DNA of 22,664 nt, from IMG/VR virus record IMGVR_UViG_3300003322_000119, positions 1 through 22,664 of that record, one strand, 5' to 3'. The notes beneath the pieces were generated by a model. That model saw only the letters and a list, made by a program, of their open reading frames with translations, had not been told where the DNA came from and did no database searches. Below are positions 319 through 13,799 of this stretch, piece after piece. Origin of the DNA: a virus. A program made the position numbers and the translations under genes. The number at the start of each line of letters is the position of its first letter. Position 1 is the stretch's first letter.

Positions 319-606
319 ATGGCTAACGGACACGGCGGAAGAAGAGAAGGAGCAGGCCGAGCATCACGAGCGGAGGTCATGGGTCTTCCCATGCTGATCG
401 AAGATGTGATCGGCGAAGTTGGCAAAAGAGATCTGATAAAAAAAATATTCGAACAAGCGAAAGGCGGAAGCTTCAACCACCAGCAGCTTCTAATGGCCTA
501 TATCTACGGTAAGCCCCAGGACAGCGTTGACGTAACAAGCGCCGGCGAAAAGATTGAATCCGTCAAGGAAATCGTATTCAGAGATTATGCTGAGCCTGGA
601 GTTTAG
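319..606 (+). CDS. phage terminase small subunit
   Basis: This 95-residue protein is the likely DNA-recognition subunit of the packaging motor. It opens with a glycine- and arginine-rich segment (GGRREGAGR, about residues 6-14) followed by helical sequence and ends in the pattern YGKPQDSVDVTS (about 64-75). That pattern is typical of small terminase proteins encoded just before terL in Bacteroidota phages. The ATG lies directly after the TCAAGT array with no SD. The 3' end overlaps the large subunit start at 587 by 20 bases. The assignment rests on the N- and C-terminal patterns plus position; no structure-based check was possible. Confidence 0.8.
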   Translation: MANGHGGRREGAGRASRAEVMGLPMLIEDVIGEVGKRDLIKKIFEQAKGGSFNHQQLLMAYIYGKPQDSVDVTSAGEKIESVKEIVFRDYAEPGV

Positions 607-1846
607 CAAGATCTACCGACCGCTCTTCACGACCAAGGCCAGGTACATACACCTATGGGGCGGCCGGGGCCGTGGCGGATCTTTCACCGCTACTCAATAC
701 TATCTCCACCTGATCACCCAACCGCAGTACTTCCGTGGCTATATCATGCGCGAGATCCTGGGAGACATCCGGGAAAGCCTTTGGCGTGACTTCAAAGACC
801 GGATCGAGGAGGCTGGCATCGATGACCAGTTTGAGCTTAACGAGACGAAGATGTCCGCGGTTCATGTGCCGACTGGCAATGTTCTCCTGGCGAAGGGCTT
901 CAAAAAGTCCAGCGGTAAGCAGACGGCCAAGCTCAAGTCAATCGCCGGGGCCACGCACGTCCTTATCGAAGAGGCCGAGGAGATCAGCGAGGACGACTTC
1001 AAGCAGCTCGACGACTCTCTGCGGACCGTCAAAGGCCAGATCCAGATTATCCAGATTTTCAACCCGCCATCAAAACGGCATTGGATCTGGAAGCGCTGGT
1101 ATAATCTAGTAGACACAGATATCGTCGATGAAGAAGGCAGCAGCTATTATCGTGCAGAGCCTAAGGCGGACCCATCCCTGTTATCAATATTCTCCACGTT
1201 CAGAGACAATATCAAGAACCTAAACGCATCGTTCATCGCCAACCTCCTGGCATATACCGGCGAGTATCTATACACTGTCGTTATGGGCCTGATCAGCGAG
1301 GGCGTCCGCGGACGGATCTATAAGGGATGGACGCCAGTTACTGAGATGCCCGGGTTGTATTCCAAGTTCTATGGGCTGGATTGGGGCTTTAACGATCCGG
1401 TCGCCCTGATAGAGGTGGAGGCGCATAACGACGAAAGTTGGTTGGACGAGAAGGTATACGAGTGTGGATGGAGTAATCAGCAGCTATCTGACCGCATGGA
1501 TGAGCTTGGCATAAGCCGGTCCGCTCCGATCTACGCCGACTGCGCAAGCCCTAAAGACATCTCCGACATGCAAGCCAAAGGCTGGAACATCATCCCCTGC
1601 ATCAAGGGGCCTGGGTCGGTCCAGGCCGGAATACGTTACCTGAAGGGGCGGAAGATCTACGCCACCGAGCGCAGCAAGAACCTTTGGACCGAGAACCAGG
1701 AGTATAAATGGAAAGAGGACCAGAACAAACAGCCGACCGATGAGCCGGTTGACAAGAACAATCACCTCATGGACGCGGCCAACTATGCACACGACGACAT
1801 CCGCGAGGCTGCCCATGGCGGCCCCGTAATGAGCTTTCACAAGTAA
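587..1846 (+). CDS. terL: phage terminase large subunit (packaging ATPase/nuclease)
   Basis: The 419-residue motor protein hydrolyses ATP to pump DNA into the prohead and cuts the concatemer. The P-loop is WGGRGRGGS (about residues 24-32), which has Gly where the usual Walker A lysine stands. Walker B is VLIEEAEE (125-132). The C-terminal RNase H-like nuclease shows acidic residues in GLDWGF (D265), ADCASP (D318) and HLMDAANY (D396), the three expected positions. ATG 587 (MLSLEFSK) is chosen over the in-frame TTG at 554, which lies deep inside terS. A 20-base overlap with terS suggests coupled translation. Length and motif order fit a Terminase_3/6-like protein. The P-loop substitution appears to be a natural variant, because all other motifs are intact. 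Confidence 0.93.
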   Translation: MLSLEFSKIYRPLFTTKARYIHLWGGRGRGGSFTATQYYLHLITQPQYFRGYIMREILGDIRESLWRDFKDRIEEAGIDDQFELNETKMSAVHVPTGNVLLAKGFKKSSGKQTAKLKSIAGATHVLIEEAEEISEDDFKQLDDSLRTVKGQIQIIQIFNPPSKRHWIWKRWYNLVDTDIVDEEGSSYYRAEPKADPSLLSIFSTFRDNIKNLNASFIANLLAYTGEYLYTVVMGLISEGVRGRIYKGWTPVTEMPGLYSKFYGLDWGFNDPVALIEVEAHNDESWLDEKVYECGWSNQQLSDRMDELGISRSAPIYADCASPKDISDMQAKGWNIIPCIKGPGSVQAGIRYLKGRKIYATERSKNLWTENQEYKWKEDQNKQPTDEPVDKNNHLMDAANYAHDDIREAAHGGPVMSFHK

Positions 1847-1851
1847 AACCC

Positions 1852-2112
1852 ATGAATATGGAAACAATCAAATGGATTTGCGTGGCTTACACTATGATTC
1901 AGATTAGGAAGGTTCCTTTCCTGTATCTTGAATTATTAAACTGGTTACGGCGACATATGAAGGGATGCCGGTATAATATATCGCGCTCTTGCGATGGCGG
2001 TTGGGCGTTATGGGATGAGCGTAAAAAAGATGCGCTTGGATTTTCGACAAGGATTTGTTCTTTATGCCCATTATGGTTAGCTGAAACACTGAGTAACATT
2101 AGGTACTTATGA
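1852..2112 (+). CDS. hypothetical protein, 86 aa
   Basis: I do not recognise this protein. It begins MNMETIKW, is basic with many aromatic residues, and carries four cysteines, one pair as CSLC near residues 71-74. The DNA is visibly more AT-rich than terL before it and the chaperone after it. The start is 5 bases after the terL stop and the stop overlaps the next start as ATGA (2109-2112), so it sits properly in the operon. That positioning is the main argument that it is expressed. It could be a late-acquired accessory gene placed between conserved packaging and tail genes. Confidence 0.5.
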   Translation: MNMETIKWICVAYTMIQIRKVPFLYLELLNWLRRHMKGCRYNISRSCDGGWALWDERKKDALGFSTRICSLCPLWLAETLSNIRYL

Positions 2113-2762
2113 AAATAACCATCGAACTAAACGGCGTAAAGCTATCGCGCAACATGCCCACATCATGGCACGAGGTCACCTTCGGCCAGTTTTTAAAGCT
2201 CCAGAGCATCGAAAAGGACACCGCGAAGATCTTCGCCCTCTTCCTGGACATTGAGGAATCCATCGTTGTTAAAGCAAAGATTCACGATCTCGACGGCATA
2301 CTGCTTAAACTAAGGTTCTTAAACGATCAGGTACCACTCAGTGTGCCGCTCGAGATCATGGGCTACCCCATCCCCAAAGATCTGGGCCTTGATTGCCTGG
2401 GGCCTTTCTTGGACATGCAGCGCGACGTAAAGGATGGCGCCGGGCGCACCGACCTCGAGAAGCTCGAACGCTACACAACATACGTTGCCATGTATGCCTG
2501 CCGGCCTTATGACTGGCAGAAAGCCGAAGAAATGGCGCCCATGTTCCTCAATGCGCCGGCTCCGGAGGTGCTGGCTATCGGCCATTTTACATTGCTGAGG
2601 CTGATCGGATCAGCCTCCAGCACCAAAGCAGGCTCCCAAAGTCTGACTACACGGCTAAGGAGATTCAAGCAGGCTTTAAAGATCTGGGCGAGAAATATGG
2701 GGACTATGGTACGCTACTATATCTGGAGGCTGAGACCGGCCAAAGTCGGGAAGCAATCCTAA
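2109..2762 (+). CDS. tail assembly chaperone, short (zero-frame) product
   Basis: The 217-residue zero-frame product is the counterpart of lambda gpG: a soluble chaperone that coats the tape measure while the tail tube assembles. The first ~190 residues look like an ordinary globular protein (for example PTSWHEVTFGQFLKL near the N-terminus and APEVLAIGHFTLL near 155-167). The last 26 residues after the slippery site are Arg/Lys-rich and of low quality. That is expected where the physiological message is partly carried in the -1 frame. The start is ATGA-coupled to the preceding gene. The call rests mainly on the overlapping -1 frame and on size; remote sequence similarity was not tested. Confidence 0.72.
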   Translation: MKITIELNGVKLSRNMPTSWHEVTFGQFLKLQSIEKDTAKIFALFLDIEESIVVKAKIHDLDGILLKLRFLNDQVPLSVPLEIMGYPIPKDLGLDCLGPFLDMQRDVKDGAGRTDLEKLERYTTYVAMYACRPYDWQKAEEMAPMFLNAPAPEVLAIGHFTLLRLIGSASSTKAGSQSLTTRLRRFKQALKIWARNMGTMVRYYIWRLRPAKVGKQS

Positions 2763-2857
2763 AATGGTCTGTGTACGAATATCACCATAATATTGCCTAT
2801 CTTGCTGACAAAGTACGTGCCACCAAACTGTATATGGATCTGATGAAAGCCAAATGA
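2109..2857 (+). CDS. tail assembly chaperone, -1 frameshift product (gpGT-like)
   Basis: Slipping back one base on T TTA AAG (2675-2681) after codon 191 enters an open frame that continues DLGEKYGDYGTLLYLEAE and ends at TGA 2855-2857. The fusion has about 249 residues with a 58-residue C-terminal domain. That domain is acidic/amphipathic and protein-like (it ends YMDLMKAK), whereas the zero-frame tail is not. Its stop overlaps the next gene's start (ATG 2854) as ATGA, exactly like the other junctions here, which is strong evidence that the -1 frame is translated. In lambda the T domain of the analogous fusion recruits tail tube subunits. Confidence 0.72.
2657..2681 (+). promoter_or_regulatory. 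programmed -1 ribosomal frameshift site with upstream SD-like stimulator
   Basis: TTTAAAG (2675-2681) matches X XXY YYZ in the correct phase: zero-frame codons are TTA (2676-2678) and AAG (2679-2681). An SD-like AAGGAG (2657-2662) lies 12 bases upstream, the arrangement known to stimulate -1 frameshifting in E. coli dnaX. I saw no convincing downstream stem-loop by eye. Confidence 0.72.
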
Positions 2858-3297
2858 AACGATCCGAGGTAAGAACATTCATTCAGTCCGGCGTCGATGC
2901 GCTCAGCGCGGCCATTGCTTTCAACAGCGGGCGCATCTCCGAGTTCAATTCAGAGCGGTCGAACGAGTACCCGTTCGTGTGGCTTGAAAGCCTGTCGGTA
3001 ACGCGCACGAACAGCGGTGTCGGCGCGCCCACGGATGAATGGGCCGTCGCCCTGCACATCGCCAAGAAGGATGCGGCGGGCTCCAGCCCTGCAGAATACG
3101 AGGCCATCGTCGACGACTGCGACGAGATCGCCCGGGCGCTCAGCGAGCAATACCGCGCCACGCTGGCAGACTCGCTCACCGTCGTGATCACACAGGAGAC
3201 ACGCACGCCATTCATTCACAAGCACGCCGACGACACCACGGGCGTGATACTCGCGTTCACGCTGCAGACATGGGACAACTCAACTTTTTGCGCGTGA
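2854..3297 (+). CDS. putative tail terminator / tail completion protein
   Basis: This 147-residue protein has alternating helix and strand patterns. It includes a segment reading WLESLSVTRTN (about 43-53) and a C-terminal strand VILAFTLQTWDNS (about 130-142). Small proteins of this size and ending, next to the gp10-like gene and the tail chaperone, usually cap the tail tube or join it to the head. The function is inferred from position and general fold pattern, and a head-closure role is equally possible. Translation is coupled at both ends: ATGA with the frameshifted chaperone at 2854 and GTGA with the next small ORF at 3294. Confidence 0.5.
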   Translation: MKRSEVRTFIQSGVDALSAAIAFNSGRISEFNSERSNEYPFVWLESLSVTRTNSGVGAPTDEWAVALHIAKKDAAGSSPAEYEAIVDDCDEIARALSEQYRATLADSLTVVITQETRTPFIHKHADDTTGVILAFTLQTWDNSTFCA

Positions 3298-3443
3298 AAG
3301 AGAATGAATTTATTCTTACGAAAAGACAGGCAAAACTTGCCTACAAAGCATATATAGAGGGGTTGCCTGGATGGCGTAGGATAGGTCACCACCTGTATTA
3401 TATAGGTCGAAGGGTAAGAATATTTTCATGGTATGATTACTGA
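3294..3443 (+). CDS. hypothetical protein, 49 aa, GTG start
   Basis: A GTG at 3294 overlaps the previous stop as GTGA, and the ORF runs to 3443, overlapping the next ATG (3433) by 11 bases. The product is very basic and aromatic (VKENEFILTKRQ at the start, then RRIGHHLYYIGRRV), with no recognised motif. The DNA is AT-richer than its neighbours. The coupled start, exact fit between two structural genes and unbroken frame support a real gene, but there is no functional evidence. Confidence 0.45.
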   Translation: MKENEFILTKRQAKLAYKAYIEGLPGWRRIGHHLYYIGRRVRIFSWYDY

Positions 3444-3933
3444 CGTTTTAAACCGATACGGAAAGCTGGGCGTAGAAGGCCTGCAGGATGCCGTGCACCC
3501 GCTATCGGCTACAGGCAAGACGGAGCGATCTATTCATTACGATCTGAGCCATAAAGGCACGGTTTACACCCTGCGGTTCCTAGCACGTCAGTTCTTCAGC
3601 GCGATGGAGACAGGCAGGGGGCCGCGCAAGGTTTCCAGCTACGGAGGATTCGATAAGGGCCTCGAGGAATACCTGGACGCCCGAGGACTGCCCAGCAAGG
3701 TATCAAAGTCCGGCGTCAAGTACTGGAAGATCAAAGACAGCTGGGTGTCCGCAAAGAGCCTGGCCCACAAGATCAACAAAGAAGGCGACGCCACCTATCG
3801 CGCCGGCGGCCGCACGATCTACTCACCATTCCTCGATAAGCTCGTACAAGAACTGAAGCGGGAGGTAGCCCGCGACTATATCCACTCGTCTTTAACCCGC
3901 ATGAAAAATGCTTTCCGTAATCAGCAGGCCTAA
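3433..3933 (+). CDS. putative HK97 gp10-like head-tail joining / tail completion protein
   Basis: The 166-residue protein has the sequence style of gp10-like neck proteins: a short N-terminal helix, then LSATGKTERSI (about 24-34), a strand VYTLRFLARQF, and METGRGPRK (about 58-66). This motif recurs in structural proteins of Bacteroidota phages. The middle carries GLPSKVSKSGVKYWK and the C-terminus is helical. Its place between the putative tail terminator and the first large tail protein fits a role at the head-tail or tube-baseplate junction. It overlaps the next gene by 26 bases. The family call is moderate; the exact ring it occupies cannot be read from sequence. Confidence 0.5.
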   Translation: MITDVLNRYGKLGVEGLQDAVHPLSATGKTERSIHYDLSHKGTVYTLRFLARQFFSAMETGRGPRKVSSYGGFDKGLEEYLDARGLPSKVSKSGVKYWKIKDSWVSAKSLAHKINKEGDATYRAGGRTIYSPFLDKLVQELKREVARDYIHSSLTRMKNAFRNQQA

Positions 3934-6514
3934 TGGCTACGTACTTGATCCAACACCAATCACTGCCCGCATCGAGGAGGATTATTCAAATTATGCTACC
4001 GTTGACACTGGGCCGACAGAACATACGTTAGGAACTGGAGATGTAGTCTACATAAAGTCAAGGGCACGCGAGTATAACGGATTCTGGACAATCCACGTGC
4101 AAAATGCTATCAACTTCTTTCTTGTGCAGGACGATGGAACATATCTACCATACACAGTAGATGCGGACATAACGTATTACGTATCGATTCATGAGCACAA
4201 ATGGAGTTCTGCTTTTCTACCGATCGTGTACAAACTTAAAAGCGATCTTTGGCCCGGCAACTTTGTGGACGCAGCAAGAGGTTTTTCATCGTATACAAAC
4301 AGCGGTGGATACGTTGACCTTCAAGTTAGCGGAGGGTCGCTTGGCACATTCAATGCTTTAGACTATATACAGATCAGTAACGCAAGCTCTGAAGAGGTGA
4401 ACGGTGTTTGGCAGATCATAACTAAGACATCCACCACAAGGGTTACTATAAATCTCGCGTACGGCACATACACGTTCACAGGCGCCAGCATTCAACTTTA
4501 CAAGTCAAATTATCATGCCATAATAAAGGTACATGGTGGCCTGTTCGATCATACGCTAAGGGAATATAATGGATCAAGGCTTCTTGCTACACTGAATCTA
4601 ACGCCAGATGAGGATAACGTTGTTAAATTCTCTGTCTCTGAAATAATAAGAGCCACACTTTCACTGGAGAACGACCTGCTGTTATCAGCACTACCAAACA
4701 ACACGGATGCATTCACGCAGTTCTTCATTCAGTATGGTGATTCATACGACTTGTCTGATGGAACTGACATCACTACATTTGAATCTTCGGTAATATCAGA
4801 CGATAGTGAGTTTGTTGGCTTTGCCGCGCTGAATAAACTTGAATTTAAAAACTTGTACTCTGGATATTTAAGTGAATACATTATGATCAACTCTCTCTCA
4901 AAATTTCTAACCGTATTTGCAGTTCCTGTGATGTTTGCCTCTTCGTGTAGTGATGAATGCTATACCAATGATGGAGTTTCGCTGCAATCACTTAGTAATA
5001 TGTCACAAGAAGGATCAGCGCCAAATGTACAATGGTCGATAAGTAGCGCGCCTTCAGTTTCTCTCCCGTCTTCCGGTGCGCTTCCTGAAAATCAAAGAAC
5101 ATCTTATAAACTTGTTTCAAATATATCTAATCCGTATTTAGGCGAGTATACATTTTTAATAAGCGCGTCAGCCGGCGGCTCTGCATATCTTTCACTATAT
5201 ATGCTTCAATCTGATGATACGCCAATAACGAGTGATGCATTTATAGACATTCCGCCAGAAGGATTAACCAATTACCAAGTTACGTTGTATTCTGGTGAAT
5301 TTCTTCCAGGGAAAATAAAAATAAGTGCGACGGCAACTGCTAACGCCGGTAATATAGTTATCACACTTTCGAAACTATCTATTCAAAGCAAAAACTATCT
5401 AAATGAAGACGGACCATGTTACCAAGACATAAGCTTTATTCTCGACTACGACATACCCAGCATTCCAAGTATAGATTCGTTCAATGACATAGGCCCAAGC
5501 GGTGGGTTTCCTAATAAACCGTGGGTTGTTGGATCAGGTGAGCAAAGTGTGTCGCTGGGCGCACTGCAACGATCAAATTTTTTGTCCGCAACGATTAAAA
5601 ACCCTGCATTGCCAACGCCAACAAATTCAGTATATCACTTTAGGGTAAGCGCACATGGATCTACTTCAGGTGCGACAAGGACAGGAACGGTAATAATAAG
5701 TGTTTATAATACGTCAGATCCTCCAGGCTCCATACCAAGAGGTGAGCAAATAATAGATATCCCCAATGGGTTAGGACTGATTAGCTATCCAGTTACCATA
5801 ACAGCTTTTGGCGTAGCTGATCAAGTTAGAGTTCAAGTAGAAGATAAGGCTAACGCATCCAATACGATAACCGTTACACTCATAAGAAACGATAACGCTG
5901 AATACGACACAGAAATTTTTCTTCAAAAAGAATATTCAACCAGGACTGATCTCCAGAGTATAGAGTACAAAGGCCCTGGATTGTATCGCGTCCCTATTGA
6001 TCTCGACAATCAATTCAGCAGCGCGAATATATCACTGCTTTTGAATGACAGTACGATTTCTGAGACAAAGACCGTCCAGATCGACACAAAGTGTTCTGAC
6101 GTATGCCTAAAGCTTTCTTGGCTGAATAACATGGGAGGTTTCGAATACTGGAAATTCACGGCGTTCAAGGATAACAATGTAGAGATAGGTGACACTGGAG
6201 AGACGTCAGTCAATCTTATCACCTCATGGCCGCAGTCTTACGGTGAGTTCGCTGACACAGAGAAGCGCCGGGAGACTTTCAGGAACTCCACAAAGCAACT
6301 GCTCGTAAGAAGCCAGAACATAACAAAGTCACAGGCAGACGCGCTGGCAACTATTAAGTCGTCGCCGCTTGTTCAGATATTCAATACCGTGTACGATAAA
6401 CGAACGGTAATCGTGGATAAGAACTCGTTCACCATCTACAACGACAACGACAAGCTTTTTAGCTGTCAGTTCACCATAACATACACAGACGATATTCCTT
6501 CACAGACGGTATGA
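3908..6514 (+). CDS. large tail/baseplate structural protein with tandem carbohydrate-binding-like domains
   Basis: This 868-residue protein is probably part of the tail tip and may contact the receptor. Residues 1-14 (ending RPNGYVLD) resemble the start of tail proteins in related phages. Two GDxVxI...NGxW modules follow (about 28-75 and 135-195), like the FCCH-type repeats of phage tail proteins. Two homologous beta-rich domains lie at about 372-492 and 528-662: each starts PNxxW, has SVSL, and later an IDIP segment and an AN..N.IT.TL-like end. The C-terminal block (about 725-868, with LKLSWLNNMGGFEYW) appears to be the conserved tail core. DNA around 4900-5900 is AT-richer than the flanks, suggesting an acquired receptor-binding insert. 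It overlaps both neighbours, the downstream one as ATGA. The location on the virion is inferred. Confidence 0.6.
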   Translation: MLSVISRPNGYVLDPTPITARIEEDYSNYATVDTGPTEHTLGTGDVVYIKSRAREYNGFWTIHVQNAINFFLVQDDGTYLPYTVDADITYYVSIHEHKWSSAFLPIVYKLKSDLWPGNFVDAARGFSSYTNSGGYVDLQVSGGSLGTFNALDYIQISNASSEEVNGVWQIITKTSTTRVTINLAYGTYTFTGASIQLYKSNYHAIIKVHGGLFDHTLREYNGSRLLATLNLTPDEDNVVKFSVSEIIRATLSLENDLLLSALPNNTDAFTQFFIQYGDSYDLSDGTDITTFESSVISDDSEFVGFAALNKLEFKNLYSGYLSEYIMINSLSKFLTVFAVPVMFASSCSDECYTNDGVSLQSLSNMSQEGSAPNVQWSISSAPSVSLPSSGALPENQRTSYKLVSNISNPYLGEYTFLISASAGGSAYLSLYMLQSDDTPITSDAFIDIPPEGLTNYQVTLYSGEFLPGKIKISATATANAGNIVITLSKLSIQSKNYLNEDGPCYQDISFILDYDIPSIPSIDSFNDIGPSGGFPNKPWVVGSGEQSVSLGALQRSNFLSATIKNPALPTPTNSVYHFRVSAHGSTSGATRTGTVIISVYNTSDPPGSIPRGEQIIDIPNGLGLISYPVTITAFGVADQVRVQVEDKANASNTITVTLIRNDNAEYDTEIFLQKEYSTRTDLQSIEYKGPGLYRVPIDLDNQFSSANISLLLNDSTISETKTVQIDTKCSDVCLKLSWLNNMGGFEYWKFTAFKDNNVEIGDTGETSVNLITSWPQSYGEFADTEKRRETFRNSTKQLLVRSQNITKSQADALATIKSSPLVQIFNTVYDKRTVIVDKNSFTIYNDNDKLFSCQFTITYTDDIPSQTV

Positions 6515-8727
6515 TACTCAGGTCCAACGGCAGATACTTTGACTTTAACGCTGACATAGAAGTTGAGCGCCGATGGAAGCTTTTCGAAAACCTGAATCAA
6601 ACAGACGGTGATTTCTCGTATCGGTTTGAGATGGACAGGACGGCCAACAACATGGAGATACTCGGATTTCCGTATCCAGACTCAGTCAAGTCGATATACC
6701 GGTCTGTGCCATGCGACGTCCTGGACGATGATAACATCCCATTCCATATCGGTCATATTCGTGTGGAGGGACTTCCGACGGGTAAGATAGCATGTAGCTT
6801 TTTCTCAGGTAACTACAACTGGATATCACAACTCGGGGGCAGCATGCAGGATCTAGACTTCACCCAGTACGATGGGCCAATAACACTTTCAAATGTTGAG
6901 AATTCGTGGAGCAACGAAGAGGGCCGCATATTCCCATTGATCGATACTGGACTTCTTAATACTCGGAGCTATCGTAATATCAAGATTGAAGATTTTGTAC
7001 CTGGTGTATTTGTGAAGACCATCTTCCAGCGTATCACAAGGTCCACAGGTATAAAGTTTACAGGCGATTTGTTCAAGGACCCAATATTCAACTCGATGAT
7101 ATTGGTTAAGCAGAACGTAAGTCAAAAGGATTTAGAAGACAGATCATCGTTTGCAAACAAAACATCAGATCAGGCATTTACGGCCACAGGACCAGGAGCC
7201 AGTATCACAGTTCAGTTTCAGGACGATTTCAATTTCCCATATTATGACGGATCTAAAGGTAATTACGACTCATCAACGGGTATATACACCGCCGACGCGC
7301 CTATGTTTGTGGTTGCTGAAATTGATTTAGGAACAATCACTTACGTTTCACCAAACACACCAAACATTTCAGTAAGATTTTTCATCAATGGCTCTAACTA
7401 TGCGACTGTATACGACTCGGCATTCCCTGGCCCTACTCCAGCAAGCCCAATAGCAATAAATAAAATATCGAGACAAATATTCTTACAGTCTGGCGATCAA
7501 CTGACGGTTAATGTTTTTGCAATAGGAAATAACACTGTTACAATAAAAGCGAACTCTACATTTAAAGTAACCCCATTAAATATACTTTATGTAACAGGTC
7601 AAAATCTTGTACCTGACTGGACACAGGCGAAGTTTGTAAACAACATTATGTCTATGTTTTGTTGCGTTTCTGACTTCGATAAGGGAAGCAACACCGTCAC
7701 TATAGATTTCATGAACAATCTTTCTAGCAAAGAACCGATAGACCTATCAGACTATGTAACTCAGCAGGATGTTGACTTCCAGGAAATAGTATCTCCGTAC
7801 GCAAAATCAAACTCTTTGTCTTATCAGCCTAGCAGTGACGAAGATCTGCCAGACATTGTTATAACGTATGGGGTTGATGATGCTACAATAAATGGTAACG
7901 GCATCATCAGAATAGATAATGATTTTATAGAAGACACTGGAGAGATATTTAAAAGTGATTTCTCTGCGCCTAAAACATACGTGCATCCAGAGCTTCGATG
8001 TAGTATTGAGCGAGTAAATCTATTCAGCGCAAACGAGATAAAATCAACAGAGTTCACCCAAGTAACCAACCTTTTAACTGCTGCTAATTTCGATCTCGTA
8101 AACTCGGTAGATTTTTTTGATGGAGATCTGGTAAGAATAACAGAATCAACAAACGATCTATACAACGGCGATTGGATAGTCGAAGAGAACTCTGGCGGAA
8201 ATTTTACGCTTGTTGGCCTCCTTTTTTCAGCCGATGCAACCGGCAAGATCACAAAGATCACGCACAAGATAACCAACAATAAAGATGTACATTTGTTTGT
8301 TCAGACCAAATACGACTCGAATCAAGTACCCCAATATTCATCTCGATCGTCTTTTATATTTTCATCTGGCAGCACTAATGACACTGTTACCGACGTAGCA
8401 TATCCATACTTCAATCTGCTTAGCGTCGGTAATACGGTAAATAGCCTGTACAAACAATCGTTGTCTTTTGGAGACGTGACAGACCAACGGTCATACCAAA
8501 GGACGATCACGGATTCATACTGGCGCAACATTGAAAGAATTCTTAATGATCCTACGAAGGTTTACGAATCTGCTCTTTTGCCTAAAAGTGTATTCCTGTC
8601 TTTGACAGCGCTCAGACCTATCCGCATAAGAACACTGGAGACGGACAATTTATATTATCTTAACCGGGTAAGCGGTTACAAAAACAGCTACTTACCGTGC
8701 GATATTGAACTGGTCAAACTCTCTTAA
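6511..8727 (+). CDS. tail tip / baseplate protein with a C1q-like insert
   Basis: The 738-residue protein begins with a strand-rich domain (VERRWKLFENLNQ at 19-31). A probable insertion at about 230-355 reads like a C1q/TNF jelly roll: YYDGSKGNYDSSTGIYTA (244-261), then a strand with FFING, then FLQSGDQLTVNVF. A third copy of the NGxW module found in the preceding protein lies at about 528-582 (FFDGDLVRITE, then YNGDWIVEEN). It immediately precedes the tape measure, the usual place for distal tail or hub components in this gene order. The start overlaps the preceding stop as ATGA. A receptor or glycan-binding role for the jelly roll is inference. Confidence 0.58.
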   Translation: MILRSNGRYFDFNADIEVERRWKLFENLNQTDGDFSYRFEMDRTANNMEILGFPYPDSVKSIYRSVPCDVLDDDNIPFHIGHIRVEGLPTGKIACSFFSGNYNWISQLGGSMQDLDFTQYDGPITLSNVENSWSNEEGRIFPLIDTGLLNTRSYRNIKIEDFVPGVFVKTIFQRITRSTGIKFTGDLFKDPIFNSMILVKQNVSQKDLEDRSSFANKTSDQAFTATGPGASITVQFQDDFNFPYYDGSKGNYDSSTGIYTADAPMFVVAEIDLGTITYVSPNTPNISVRFFINGSNYATVYDSAFPGPTPASPIAINKISRQIFLQSGDQLTVNVFAIGNNTVTIKANSTFKVTPLNILYVTGQNLVPDWTQAKFVNNIMSMFCCVSDFDKGSNTVTIDFMNNLSSKEPIDLSDYVTQQDVDFQEIVSPYAKSNSLSYQPSSDEDLPDIVITYGVDDATINGNGIIRIDNDFIEDTGEIFKSDFSAPKTYVHPELRCSIERVNLFSANEIKSTEFTQVTNLLTAANFDLVNSVDFFDGDLVRITESTNDLYNGDWIVEENSGGNFTLVGLLFSADATGKITKITHKITNNKDVHLFVQTKYDSNQVPQYSSRSSFIFSSGSTNDTVTDVAYPYFNLLSVGNTVNSLYKQSLSFGDVTDQRSYQRTITDSYWRNIERILNDPTKVYESALLPKSVFLSLTALRPIRIRTLETDNLYYLNRVSGYKNSYLPCDIELVKLS

Positions 8728-8731
8728 AACA

Positions 8732-10699
8732 ATGGCAAACGAGAAAGACGAAGTAGTTTTAGAGGTTAAGATTGACACTGGAGCTGCAGAAAAAGAACTG
8801 CTTGGTGTTGAGAAGTCTATTCTTGGGACCAAAGCAGCTATTCAGGATCTGAACAAGGCGTACAAGGCCGGCACCATTACCCAGGACGAGTTCATCGAGG
8901 AAAGCGTGCGGCTTCAGGCTGTGCAGAAGAAAGAGCAGGAACAGAAGCGAACGTTGATCAGAACTATAGAGACTGAAAGCAACTCTCGTAACGCGTTAAA
9001 GCTCCGCGTTAATCAGCTTGCCAAGGAATACGACAACATAAACAGAAAGACGGTAGAAGGTGCCAGACGCGCGGCAGAGCTTGAAAAAGAACTCGCAGAT
9101 TTAAATGCCCAGATAAACAAGACATCAAAGAGCGCTGGACTATTCAAAGACCAGATAGGCAACTATCCTGATAAGCTCAGCGATGCTATTAGTAGTATAA
9201 ATGTCGCCGGCGTTTCAGTAGGAGATCTGGCAACGAAGTTCGGATCATTCGCAGGAATCGCCACAGCTGTAACGGGAACTGTAGGTGCGTTGGCTGGCGC
9301 TTATGTGGCAAGCGCATCGGGCGCTCGTGACCTTGAAAATGCTCAGATATTACTATCTAAGACTTATGCCGTTGCCGGTGAGGGTCTGGCTAATCTGATT
9401 AATGATGAGGATGATCAGGTGGGCATATTGGAGAAACTAACAACTTTTATTCTTCTTAGATATGTACCTGCATTATATGCGGAATCGGCATCTTATGCAG
9501 ATGCCGCCAAGAAACTAAAAGACCTGGAAATATCAAGAGCCTTTGCCGCTGGTGACGCAAAGAACGATGAGCGTAGGGCCGAGATTCTGAGGCGTATTAG
9601 GGATGATGAAGGAGTTGCTATTGAGGATCGAATTGCGGCATCTTCTAAGATTGACGATATCATTGAGACGGCCAAGCAACGAAGTATAATAGTTCTTAAG
9701 GCGGAGGCGCAAGCCATCAAGGAATCCACTGTAGGCTACGACAAGAACAGAGAGGCGCAGCTTGCCGTTGCTCAGATCACCGCAGAGATCGCTGACAAGG
9801 AGGAAGAGATTACTGGCAAGCTAACGGAGAACGTGACAGCTCGCCGTGCGCTCATTAAGCTTCAACAAGAACAGCTCGATCTTTATGCGCAGGAAATACG
9901 CGAGGCCAATAAGCCTAACGTAGATCTTACGCCTGGCAACAGCACAGGGATAAACGTAGTCCAAGGAACATCATTAACTGATCCTGCTATACAGGCCAGT
10001 GAGGCACGTATCGCACAATATACGAAGGAGCTTGAAGCTGTAGATTTCACTGAAAAACAAAAGGCTGATTATTACAGGCGCGGCGCTGAGCTGAGAAAAG
10101 AGATAGACGATATAAGCAATGAGGTATACTACAACTCGTTGGCGGCAACGTTCGGAAGCGTTGCGGGGTTATTCGAACAACAGTCTGCAGAGTACAAGTT
10201 ATTTGCATCAGCTGAGGCTATTGTTGCTACATATTCAGGGGCAACAAAGGCCTACGACGCACTTGCACAAATACCGTATGTTGGGCCTGCCTTGGGCACC
10301 GCCGCCGCCGCCGCCGCTATCGTAGCGGGCCTGGCAAACGTGGCTCAAATCAACGGCGTGCAGTTCGCTGCAGGTGGTTACACCGGCCCAGGATTCGGGA
10401 CGCCGGATAGTTCTGGATTCAAGCCAGCCGGCATCGTACACGAGCACGAGTACGTTACCCCAAAGCGCGTGGTCATGATGCCTCAGGCGCAGTATCACAT
10501 CAATGCGCTGGAGAACATGAGAACCCGTGGGTATGCCGATGACGGCCTTGTCACAGGACAAGCCACGTATTACGCAGAGCAGGCTTATATAACAGCAGAC
10601 GCGATCGAGAACATGCCGCCGCCCGAGGTATCTGTATATGAGATCACCAAATTGCAAAGACGTATTGCGGCGCGTGAAAAGACTTCAAGACTATCATGA
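8732..10699 (+). CDS. phage tail tape measure protein
   Basis: This protein sets tail length and is packed inside the tube. At 655 residues, the ~0.15 nm per residue rule gives a tail near 100 nm. Residues 1-140 are a charged coiled coil (repeating E/K/Q heptads). A hydrophobic segment lies at about 165-205 (FAGIATAVTGTVGALAGAYV). Long amphipathic helices follow, then an Ala/Gly stretch (about 500-540), and a C-terminal patch with FAAGGYTGPGFG, PAGIVHEHEYV and TPKRVV, a well-known ending of tape measures in Bacteroidota phages. ATG 8732 (MANEKDE), 4 bases past the previous stop, is preferred over a TTG at 8705 inside the preceding gene. The poly-Ala run is coded by a GCC repeat near 10298-10317. 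Confidence 0.88.
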   Translation: MANEKDEVVLEVKIDTGAAEKELLGVEKSILGTKAAIQDLNKAYKAGTITQDEFIEESVRLQAVQKKEQEQKRTLIRTIETESNSRNALKLRVNQLAKEYDNINRKTVEGARRAAELEKELADLNAQINKTSKSAGLFKDQIGNYPDKLSDAISSINVAGVSVGDLATKFGSFAGIATAVTGTVGALAGAYVASASGARDLENAQILLSKTYAVAGEGLANLINDEDDQVGILEKLTTFILLRYVPALYAESASYADAAKKLKDLEISRAFAAGDAKNDERRAEILRRIRDDEGVAIEDRIAASSKIDDIIETAKQRSIIVLKAEAQAIKESTVGYDKNREAQLAVAQITAEIADKEEEITGKLTENVTARRALIKLQQEQLDLYAQEIREANKPNVDLTPGNSTGINVVQGTSLTDPAIQASEARIAQYTKELEAVDFTEKQKADYYRRGAELRKEIDDISNEVYYNSLAATFGSVAGLFEQQSAEYKLFASAEAIVATYSGATKAYDALAQIPYVGPALGTAAAAAAIVAGLANVAQINGVQFAAGGYTGPGFGTPDSSGFKPAGIVHEHEYVTPKRVVMMPQAQYHINALENMRTRGYADDGLVTGQATYYAEQAYITADAIENMPPPEVSVYEITKLQRRIAAREKTSRLS

Positions 10700-10887: not shown

Positions 10888-10943
10888 CGCGTCATATTCA
10901 CTTTTGACGACTGACCGCCAGTTTGTCCATAAATTGGCGGCAG
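10885..10943 (+). promoter_or_regulatory. palindrome and hairpin before the capsid gene
   Basis: TGACGCGTCA (10885-10894) is a perfect 10-bp palindrome that includes the HTH gene stop. TGACG recurs at 10905-10909. A 10-bp hairpin follows: CCGCCAGTTT (10915-10924) with AAATTGGCGG (10931-10940), one G-U pair, loop GTCCAT, ending 3 bases before ATG 10944. With no T-run after it, it is not a classic terminator. It could control translation of the capsid ORF, act as an RNA processing site, or mark an operator. No promoter was confidently seen. Confidence 0.5.
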
Positions 10944-13232
10944 ATGTCTGTTTGTCATATCTATATCGACGACATAATCACCGGCGACACCTTGAAAGAG
11001 GTGAAGGCGGTGCTGGCACAAAACGCGGCTGCTGAGCGCATAAAGCTTCACGTCGCGTCGCCTGGCGGTTCTGTATACGCTGGGTACAACATCTATCACG
11101 CACTCAAGCTCACGGGTAAACCAATATCAACCACCATCGAGGGCGAAGCCCAATCGATGGCAACCTTCATCGCCATGGCAGGCGATGAAATCGAGATCTG
11201 CGATCCTTCCATGTTCATGATCCACATGCCCAGTTCTGAAGTTCAGGGCACATCGGAGGACATGAGGCAAGGCGCAGTAGAACTCGAGACGATCGAAAGA
11301 GACATGATCGAGGCTTACGCCCGTAAGACGGGCCTCTCTACCGATGCGATAGCAGAGATGATGCGCAAGACTACACGTCTTAATGCGCAACAGGCGGTTG
11401 ATATGAAGTTCGTGGACAAGAAGCTGAGCCACTACATGCGAGCCGTCGCGCTCGGAAAATCAAAAATTATGAAAGACAATCCTAAAACTTTCGCTGAAAA
11501 AATTATCGCCCTCGCGGCTCCATTTCTGGGTGCACCTCATGCGAACGGCCCACATGCCATAGACCTCAAGATAAAAGGTGGCGAACAGGATGGCAAGGTC
11601 TTGAACGTCATGTCAGAAGATGGCGAACTCGAAGGCAAGCCGGCTACTATCGATGGACAGCCAGCACAAGGCACATACCCGCTCCAGGACGGTCGGTCGA
11701 TCACCTGCGAAGGCGGTATCGTGACTTCCGTACAGGAAGCACAAGCCGCCGCTCCAGCCCCGGCCGCTCCCCCGGCTCAGCCTAACCAGGCAGCCCCTGC
11801 GCCCGCACCCGCCCCGGCTCCAGCTCCTACTCAGAGTGCCGCAGAACAACAGCTCGCTGCCCAAGTGGCTGTAATGAAGGCAGAGAAAGAGGCCGCCGAG
11901 GCTAAAGCCGCCGCCGCCATCGCCGAAAAAGCGACCGCCGTGCAGGCTCTCGCTCAAATCAACACAGAGATGCAACAACAACTCGCAGGCGATCCTGCCC
12001 CGCCGTCACGCGGAACCGGACCCACTATGAAAGCAAAGATCAACAGCAAGCAGCGCGAGGAAGTTATGGTGTTCATGGCAACACACATGCCCTGGATTCT
12101 CGACCGGTATCCGGCCAAGGATGTAGAGAAATATGCCCTAAACCCGGGCCCGATGATGATCTCCATACTGGAGACCAACTTCAACTACACCTATCCTGGC
12201 ATCCTCACCACAGACGTCTACTACAAGCCTACCCTGGGTAGCCCTGCCCTGTCCGACATCTTCACGATCGACCAGGGCATCAAGGACAAAAAGCGCTACA
12301 ACCTGGTAAGCCCGATATCAAAGATCCTGAAGCCATACACCGGATGCGACCGTGTATTCAACGGCAACCGCTCGCTCATCACCAACACCACCGTACAGGT
12401 GAAGGAATTCCAGATCAACGAGAGCTGGTGTAAGGACGACTTTACCCAGCAGCTGACCGGCAGCTATAACCACTTGGCGCAAGAATGGCTGCGCACCGGA
12501 ATCGATTCGTTCGACCCCAGCGGCACGCCTATTGCGACTATTATTGACAATGTGCTATCCAACGCGCTGCGTCTCGACGTATTCCGTCGTGCATCGTTCG
12601 CGGCCGGCAACAGCTCGGATGATGACTATAACCAGTTCGACGGGTTCTGGGACCGTCTGATTGATTCGTCCGGCGGCTCAAACTACTGCGTCGTACGCGC
12701 CTCAGCAACGAATGGTGCAGGTGCTGTAGGCTTCGGAACTGGGACGCTGGCTCAAAACGCAGCCCTGACGGCATTGGAGTCTGCTTACGCTAACTCAAAC
12801 ATCCTGCTCAAGGACTGGGACAACATCTACGCCCAATTCGGCGGACAAGTTCAGAAGCCAGTTTTCTGGGTTACGCGATCTGTGTGGGACAACTACTACA
12901 ACTCGCTGATCGGTACCGGCGCGGTGACCGAGCAGGCTTTCGAGAACCTGCAGAAGGGTCTCCAGACGTTGACATACAAGGGCTACGCTGTCCGCCCCGT
13001 GTCACTGTGGGATCAGTTCTTAGCTGAATCTGACAACCCGCTGACCGGCACCACCCGCCACTTGATCGCATTCACTACCCGCGATAATCACATCCTGGGC
13101 GTGGAGAACGGTGCAGATCTGAACAAGATCGATGGCTGGTATGAGCGGAAAGATCGCAAGTACTACTTTGAGGGAAACATGAAGATGGGTTACAACTATC
13201 TGCACTGCGACCTTCAGACCATCGTTTACTAA
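10944..13232 (+). CDS. head maturation protease - scaffold - major capsid protein fusion
   Basis: A single uninterrupted 762-residue ORF covers three head functions. Residues 1-170 are a ClpP-like (S14) prohead protease: SPGGSVYAGYNIY (39-51), nucleophile Ser71 in EGEAQSMA, His94 in MIHMP. At the usual Asp position (about 143) Thr is seen. Residues ~176-360 are scaffold-like: a beta segment with DG repeats, a long Pro/Ala linker, then a Glu/Ala/Lys coiled coil. From about 362 (MKAKINSK) the sequence is a ~400-residue major capsid protein of HK97 type. ATG 10944 is preferred over an in-frame TTG at 10923, which is buried in a hairpin. Internal ATGs at 11469 and 12027 fall at domain borders and could yield separate scaffold and capsid products. 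Confidence 0.82.
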   Translation: MSVCHIYIDDIITGDTLKEVKAVLAQNAAAERIKLHVASPGGSVYAGYNIYHALKLTGKPISTTIEGEAQSMATFIAMAGDEIEICDPSMFMIHMPSSEVQGTSEDMRQGAVELETIERDMIEAYARKTGLSTDAIAEMMRKTTRLNAQQAVDMKFVDKKLSHYMRAVALGKSKIMKDNPKTFAEKIIALAAPFLGAPHANGPHAIDLKIKGGEQDGKVLNVMSEDGELEGKPATIDGQPAQGTYPLQDGRSITCEGGIVTSVQEAQAAAPAPAAPPAQPNQAAPAPAPAPAPAPTQSAAEQQLAAQVAVMKAEKEAAEAKAAAAIAEKATAVQALAQINTEMQQQLAGDPAPPSRGTGPTMKAKINSKQREEVMVFMATHMPWILDRYPAKDVEKYALNPGPMMISILETNFNYTYPGILTTDVYYKPTLGSPALSDIFTIDQGIKDKKRYNLVSPISKILKPYTGCDRVFNGNRSLITNTTVQVKEFQINESWCKDDFTQQLTGSYNHLAQEWLRTGIDSFDPSGTPIATIIDNVLSNALRLDVFRRASFAAGNSSDDDYNQFDGFWDRLIDSSGGSNYCVVRASATNGAGAVGFGTGTLAQNAALTALESAYANSNILLKDWDNIYAQFGGQVQKPVFWVTRSVWDNYYNSLIGTGAVTEQAFENLQKGLQTLTYKGYAVRPVSLWDQFLAESDNPLTGTTRHLIAFTTRDNHILGVENGADLNKIDGWYERKDRKYYFEGNMKMGYNYLHCDLQTIVY

Positions 13233-13244: not shown

Positions 13245-13799
13245 ATGGCATGTAAGATAACAACCGGCCTCGCTTTCTCGTGCTCAGATCAGGTGCGAGT
13301 AGGCGGCCTGGCCCCAGATTTCTGGGTGGGATACCTGTCTGAGCTGGACACGCTGTTCAGCCTCGGGCAGGCATCCGACATCAATGCGATCGACTTCGGC
13401 AGCTACGGTGGCCTGCGCAAGTTCTCAGGCAACAAGTTCTGGCATCAGGCAAGCCAAGAGCTCCAGGTTGCGCAAGGATCAGGAAACCGTTCGTGGAAAC
13501 AGACGTTCGTAGCCAAGCTGCTTGCAGACTCAACCGCTGACGACGTGAGCCTCCAGACGTTGTGCCTCGGTAATGACATATTCATTATCTTCCAGGACAG
13601 CAACCAGCAGTTCTACATCGCCGGCGCGGGTGCAGGTCTAACAGCCGAAAGCGACACGCAAAGCAGCGGCCAGACTGGCGACTCGGACACTACCGACACG
13701 GTGACGCTTTCCGGCTCTGAACTTACCAGATTCCTTCGGTTCCGGGTGGGTAATTCAGCGTCCGCCACACTGGCGTATCTGCGTAGCTTCGAGCTTTAA
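13245..13799 (+). CDS. putative major tail tube protein
   Basis: The 184-residue protein begins MACKITTGLAFSCSDQVRVGG, an N-terminus of the style found in tail tube subunits of Bacteroidota siphoviruses. The body is beta-rich with alternating hydrophobic residues. Gly-rich AGAGAGLTAES (about 127-137), an acidic Ser/Thr loop and a final strand sequence ending YLRSFEL follow. Size (about 150-200 residues), copy-number hint (a strong SD) and position directly after the capsid gene and before a terminator all fit a tube subunit. A head decoration protein is the alternative. The start is fixed by the SD. Confidence 0.65.
   Translation: MACKITTGLAFSCSDQVRVGGLAPDFWVGYLSELDTLFSLGQASDINAIDFGSYGGLRKFSGNKFWHQASQELQVAQGSGNRSWKQTFVAKLLADSTADDVSLQTLCLGNDIFIIFQDSNQQFYIAGAGAGLTAESDTQSSGQTGDSDTTDTVTLSGSELTRFLRFRVGNSASATLAYLRSFEL

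Follow-up and report, generated by a model that had tools for sequence, protein, structure and literature searches.

A frameshift architecture is known for the tail chaperone of phage lambda, G/GT (PMC5009743). Among −1 shifts stimulated by a Shine-Dalgarno (SD) sequence, the known stimulators have a spacing of 9–14 nt (PMC5009743). PRFect (PMC10885494) lists "twoonefour" among extra motifs for tail chaperone shifts. In Bacteroidia, ribosomes occlude the anti-SD, yet a perfect SD is often kept in prfB, and availability of the anti-SD during elongation has been suspected for this gene (PMC8710568).

We analysed a virus contig of 22,664 nt (~22.7 kb), hereafter called the window, in which a programmed −1 ribosomal slip very probably gives a gene downstream of the terminase large subunit (TerL) a second reading frame (Table 1). 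We are confident, short of certainty, that two proteins, with a presumed tail-chaperone role, arise by a frameshift at 2582–2588. A preliminary description of this locus had proposed a programmed −1 frameshift with an SD-like stimulator, and comparative evidence argues for this general idea: the −1 frame is conserved in 17 lineages, and an SD-like GGAGGT is invariant in them. The same description had located the slip at T_TTA_AAG, a placement contradicted by the conservation of the −1 protein from 2585 onward, ~90 nt earlier.

Table 1. Positions in the window of the frameshift gene, its candidate signals and its neighbours
Feature	Positions	Strand	Evidence
Terminase large subunit (TerL); start may be 587	554..1846	+	Pfam Terminase_3 7.6e-27, Terminase_3C 6.3e-12
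Zero-frame ORF, predicted short product, 217 aa	2109..2762	+	
Common N-terminal domain, 160 aa, zero frame	2109..2588	+	alignments, pN/pS, AlphaFold2
GGAGGT, putative SD-like stimulator	2564..2569	+	identical in 17/17 lineages
Probable shift site C_CAT_TTT (A_AAT_TTT in the 16 other lineages)	2582..2588	+	same in-phase position in every lineage
Extension domain in the −1 frame (89 aa following Phe160; stop TGA 2855–2857)	2585..2857	+	−1 frame open in every lineage, sequence conserved
Overlapping zero-frame tail, with selection slight or absent past ~2609	2589..2762	+	pN/pS
Candidate stimulatory 3′ hairpin of 13 bp, beginning 4 nt past the shift site	2593..2622	+	folding energy versus shuffles
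AAGGAG, previously proposed stimulator; encodes Lys-Glu in the −1 frame	2657..2662	+	
T_TTA_AAG, previously proposed site; most likely a by-product of −1 Phe-Lys codons	2675..2681	+	
147-aa gene, conserved neighbour, function unassigned	2854..3297	+	gene order
166-aa gene, conserved neighbour	3433..3933	+	gene order
Tape measure protein	8705..10699	+	PHROG tape measure, E 2.6e-17

Searches of viral contigs by protein sequence and by DNA pattern yielded 16 further lineages, with near-duplicates, and one distant relative, L011. In every homologue, the zero frame encodes the N-terminal domain and is overlapped by a −1 frame of ~88–98 codons. From FYI/FYL at window position 2585, the −1 proteins can be aligned with no gap other than one insertion in L057, and from this position the motif FYI.E..RI…AGF…LLKWSV is conserved in the 17 lineages. 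TTT was fixed in the DNA pattern but free in the protein searches, and both gave the same result. The DNA pattern matched 61 contigs, of which about 44 were discarded as members of an unrelated family, which stops two codons later. Neither frame matches Pfam, PHROG or NCBIfam. The phage collection, searched at the DNA and protein levels with the gene of the window or of its relatives, gave no match, and no relatives turned up in two scans of contigs from bacterial genomes. The gene defines a family missed by current libraries. Two other candidates were rejected: in the phage record with the closest TerL (MT835674), the terminase is followed by a portal-like ORF and no homologue is present, and Flavobacterium phage 6H, a weak fold match, contains no convincing homologue.

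The alignment shows which frame is selected along the gene. In 15 gapless sequences, substitutions fall mainly at the zero-frame third position up to ~2609, and the −1 third position dominates in 2633–2674 (0.46) and in 2675–2789 (0.44), with no change at 2675. Ratios of pN/pS were pooled over eight close pairs, which are not mutually independent, such that the values are descriptive. For the zero and −1 frames, respectively, they are 0.26 and 2.04 in 2505–2579, 0.20 and 0.59 in 2580–2609, 0.85 and 0.44 in 2610–2674, and 0.83 and 0.18 in 2675–2756. Within the window lineage itself, between the window and its 95% relative L054, the three substitutions in 2610–2674 all change the zero-frame protein, and two of them are silent in the −1 frame. 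Together, the ratios and the phase pattern imply that zero-frame constraint persists across 2580–2609 and that the switch is complete before 2633. Because zero-frame selection extends to ~2609, the phase analysis by itself can place the switch no more closely than 2589–2632; for the exact slip site, the invariant motif is the guide. The overlapping −1 ORF is thus under protein-level selection across lineages, as is expected of a programmed −1 frameshift.

Several earlier observations on the two reading frames agree with these results. The −1 frame is open for 58 codons from TTTAAAG to its stop codon, where it overlaps the ORF at 2854 through an ATGA; it is in fact open from 2513, far upstream of 2675. 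The zero-frame tail had been called basic and of low quality. Its pI is 11.6 after residue 191, and its pN/pS of 0.83–0.85 past 2610 marks it as meaningless in terms of selection. The alignment of both frames with homologues, which had been suggested as a check, shows a conserved −1 tail and a zero-frame tail that is hardly selected.

Separate translation of the −1 ORF, from its own start or by re-initiation and without any frameshift, is highly improbable. Although some relatives have a −1-frame ATG nine codons before FYI, no start-codon position is common to all lineages, the upstream ATG of L068 is followed by a stop, and the first −1 ATG, GTG or TTG of the window lies 62 codons after FYI.

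The signals upstream of the switch are exceptionally constant. The arrangement GGAGGT, 12 nt, A_AAT_TTT (window 2564–2588) is exact in 16 of the 17 lineages, and the codons GGA AAT TTT are invariant in the 16 lineages other than the window's. The base before GAG is always G, even though the residue encoded by its codon may be P, G, T, E, S, M or V. Based on the codon usage of each contig, the joint probability of this invariant G is ~10^-9.7, and those of GAG, GGA, AAT and TTT are 10^-6.8, 10^-7.6, 10^-4.4 and 10^-4.1, all under the assumption of independent lineages, which does not fully hold. The 12 nt between GGAGGT and the shift site lie within the 9–14 nt of known stimulators (PMC5009743), and predicted anti-SD pairing is stronger for GGAGGT (−13.1 kcal/mol) than for AAGGAG (−7.1 kcal/mol). 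Another sequence considered as a common slip site, C_CCA_AAA, which precedes TTTAAA by 39 nt in L004 and L005, was dropped since it is absent elsewhere.

The lineage of the window departs from this pattern. The window and a relative with 95% identity have C_CAT_TTT, which does not conform to X_XXY_YYZ and permits only the Phe tRNA to re-pair, from TTT to TTT. A slip on this sequence would need either a mismatched His tRNA in the P site or single-tRNA slippage, which counts against a shift here. The pattern of C_CAT_TTT (two, one, four) recalls the "twoonefour" motif of PRFect, a likeness of name for which we claim no identity. The window lineage also has a candidate stimulatory hairpin shortly after the shift site. 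Its predicted folding energy is −19.1 kcal/mol (z −4.26, with 2 of 200 shuffles as stable), which places it in the top 0.1% of the contig's 36-nt windows. Stems are weaker or moderate in L031, L062 and L051, and there is little structure in the remaining relatives, so that a strong hairpin occurs only in the window lineage.

The downstream site that had been proposed, T_TTA_AAG stimulated by AAGGAG, has real attractions. As the preliminary description correctly noted, TTTAAAG is in phase, with TTA AAG as zero-frame codons, and AAGGAG lies 12 nt upstream of it, a suitable distance for an SD-like hexamer. Moreover, the heptamer is canonical, and the upstream A_AAT_TTT, likewise canonical, is no longer present in the window lineage. 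Nevertheless, we regard slippage at this site as very unlikely. The −1 frame is already the selected one in 2633–2674, and no compact structure occurs downstream of 2681. AAGGAG is confined to the window and the one 95%-identical relative. TTTAAAR is present in only 5 of the 17 lineages, all of which have the −1 motif AGFK; the other 12 lack it and have AGFQ, AGFD, AGFP, AGYE, AGYD, AGYQ or AGYK. Since −1 Phe-Lys codons written as TTT AAA automatically generate an in-phase T_TTA_AAN, the heptamer is expected from the protein sequence and is not independent evidence. This trap is general: an in-frame TTT AAA in any −1 ORF mimics a correctly phased slippery heptamer.

The lineage of the window might instead use both sites, a weakened one at 2582–2588 and an added one at 2675–2681, and make two long products. 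This possibility would explain why a degenerate upstream heptamer occurs together with a good downstream heptamer and an SD-like hexamer in this lineage only. We consider it unlikely, if less so than exclusive use of the downstream site. The upstream site is still marked by GGAGGT and a strong hairpin, the −1 codons in 2610–2674 are still selected, and the features of the late site are accounted for by the codons. Shifts at the two sites would give products of equal length, 249 aa, that differ only at residues 161–190, so length cannot separate the sites, but peptides can. Predicted markers of the early site are the junction peptide AEEMAPMFLNAPAPEVLAIGHFYIAEADR, EIQAGFK, SDYTAK and ISLQHQSR; a late-site product is predicted to contain the zero-frame peptides LIGSASSTK and AGSQSLTTR joined to DLGEK.

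We therefore return to a shift at 2582–2588, for which we propose the following course. Most ribosomes would stay in the zero frame to 2762 and make the 217-aa protein. In a presumed minority, the 16S rRNA tail would pair with GGAGGT during elongation, and the ribosome would then meet the hairpin at 2593–2622. A one-base backward slip would move the Phe tRNA from TTT at 2586–2588 to TTT at 2585–2587. In most relatives both tRNAs can slip on A_AAT_TTT, while in the window lineage, where the P-site half is degenerate, the slip would occur on the Phe tRNA alone with help from the hairpin. Slipped ribosomes would read the −1 frame to 2857 and make a protein of ~249 aa, in which VLAIGHF is followed at the junction by YIAEADRISLQHQSRLPKSDYTAKEIQAGFKDLGEK. 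The lengths of 217 and ~249 residues given previously are those predicted from the frames.

The frame change could also be due to slippage by RNA polymerase rather than the ribosome, given that two distant relatives, L011 and Nonlabens phage P12024S (L100, JQ823122), have T9 at the equivalent site. In these two relatives, slippage during transcription is just as possible. In the family itself, we view it as having only a slight chance. The window has four T and most relatives have A3T4, runs that are too short for ordinary transcriptional slippage, and the constant spacing of an SD-like element favours the ribosome.

P12024S is probably a cultured relative with an incompletely annotated −1 extension. 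Its gene _38 (23136–23827) lies directly after TerL and contains the T9 run at 23578–23586, with an 83-codon −1 extension. GenBank annotates only the last 55 codons of this extension, as gene _39, and the two genes as separate hypothetical proteins. In L011, T9 is at 3055–3063 and the −1 extension has ~97 codons. The −1 extensions that both relatives have at this place count in favour of a −1 frame change in the gene. The N-terminal part of the P12024S protein is a fold match (BFVD I6R9M9, prob 1.00; this entry was assigned to _38 by its length and position), and hhalign relates it to the family with an E-value of 1.7e-4 in one comparison. The extensions of P12024S and L011 have no significant match to the −1 profile. 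Compared with our family, _38/_39 share the position after TerL, the N-part fold match, the overlapping −1 extension and a similar order of the genes that follow, but differ in having the T9 slip site and in their weak sequence similarity.

The surroundings of the gene are those of a tail module. The order TerL, frameshift gene, 147-aa gene, 166-aa gene, 868-aa gene, 738-aa gene, tape measure and ClpP-type protease is kept throughout the family wherever contigs are long enough and matches detectable; TerL is upstream of the chaperone-like gene in most relatives whose contigs extend that far. The P12024S gene at the position of the 166-aa gene weakly resembles "tail completion or Neck1". The 868- and 738-aa genes (3908–8727) are conserved here but have no match in any known family; the 166-aa and 868-aa genes, adjacent in the window, are ~3–4 kb apart in L030 and L068. 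The ClpP-type domain is the N-terminal part of a 769-aa gene (10923–13232), and its location after the tape measure implies that tail genes precede head genes in the contig. Between TerL and the frameshift gene, the window has ~260 bp (1847–2108) with an 86-aa ORF (1852–2112). The 95% relative (L003) lacks this region, and its ATG almost directly follows the TerL stop.

Given this architecture, weak fold matches and a gene order conserved up to the tape measure, we infer that the products are tail assembly chaperones. Lambda G/GT serves as the analogy: the two forms, short and long, would act in this role to connect the tape measure to the tail-tube protein. AlphaFold2 models of the two parts, folded separately, have a pLDDT of 93 for the N part and 81 for the all-helical extension. 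A fold search of the PDB gave no match, and most BFVD hits were unnamed phage proteins, with a single weak match to a "Tape measure chaperone" (prob 0.69, E 0.58). The earlier designation of the gene as a chaperone is thus upheld with respect to architecture and to its position ~6 kb from the tape measure, but the name itself finds no match to a chaperone family in Pfam, PHROG, NCBIfam or phage records.

The putative use of an SD in this gene contrasts with initiation. At 116 gene starts in the window and nine related loci, anti-SD pairing was −1.36 kcal/mol, versus −2.30 kcal/mol at random positions. Gene starts in the window lack an SD, except that of the gene at 13245, with AAGGAGGT just upstream. 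We propose, tentatively and with less than even confidence, a combination of SD-free starts, as in Bacteroidota, a near-invariant SD that drives a −1 shift in elongation and, in one lineage, a single-tRNA slip on C_CAT_TTT that has taken the place of the two-tRNA heptamer and is supported by a strong hairpin. If this is true, ribosomes that ignore SDs at initiation use one during elongation. The Bacteroidota host of P12024S and mixed TerL matches only suggest a host in this phylum. More broadly, the locus illustrates how homology can correct a shift site, and it adds a family that libraries miss and an incompletely annotated frameshift in a probable cultured relative.

In comparison to known systems, the gene resembles lambda G/GT in having a short product and a −1 fusion with a common N-terminal part in a tail gene module, although it belongs to no detectable sequence family. 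The lambda genes are adjacent to the tape measure gene, whereas the gene studied here directly follows TerL, with the tape measure ORF ~5.9 kb downstream, and has a long zero-frame overlap of 57 codons past the shift site. In the window lineage, the layout is the three-part one of E. coli dnaX (A_AAA_AAG with an upstream SD and a downstream stem-loop), here an SD-like hexamer 12 nt upstream, a slip site and a hairpin 4 nt downstream. It differs from dnaX in its slip site, A_AAT_TTT or C_CAT_TTT, in a hairpin that is not conserved across the family, and in that the shift gives a longer rather than a truncated product. With the prfB frameshift of Bacteroidia (Flavobacterium johnsoniae, AGGAGGU; PMC8710568), the gene shares a near-perfect SD at the shift site in a setting where gene starts have no SD. 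The prfB shift is +1 rather than −1, depends on a stop codon and is autoregulatory. If the hosts are Bacteroidota, a conserved SD at a −1 shift site would provide a direct test of whether the sequestered anti-SD is freed during elongation.
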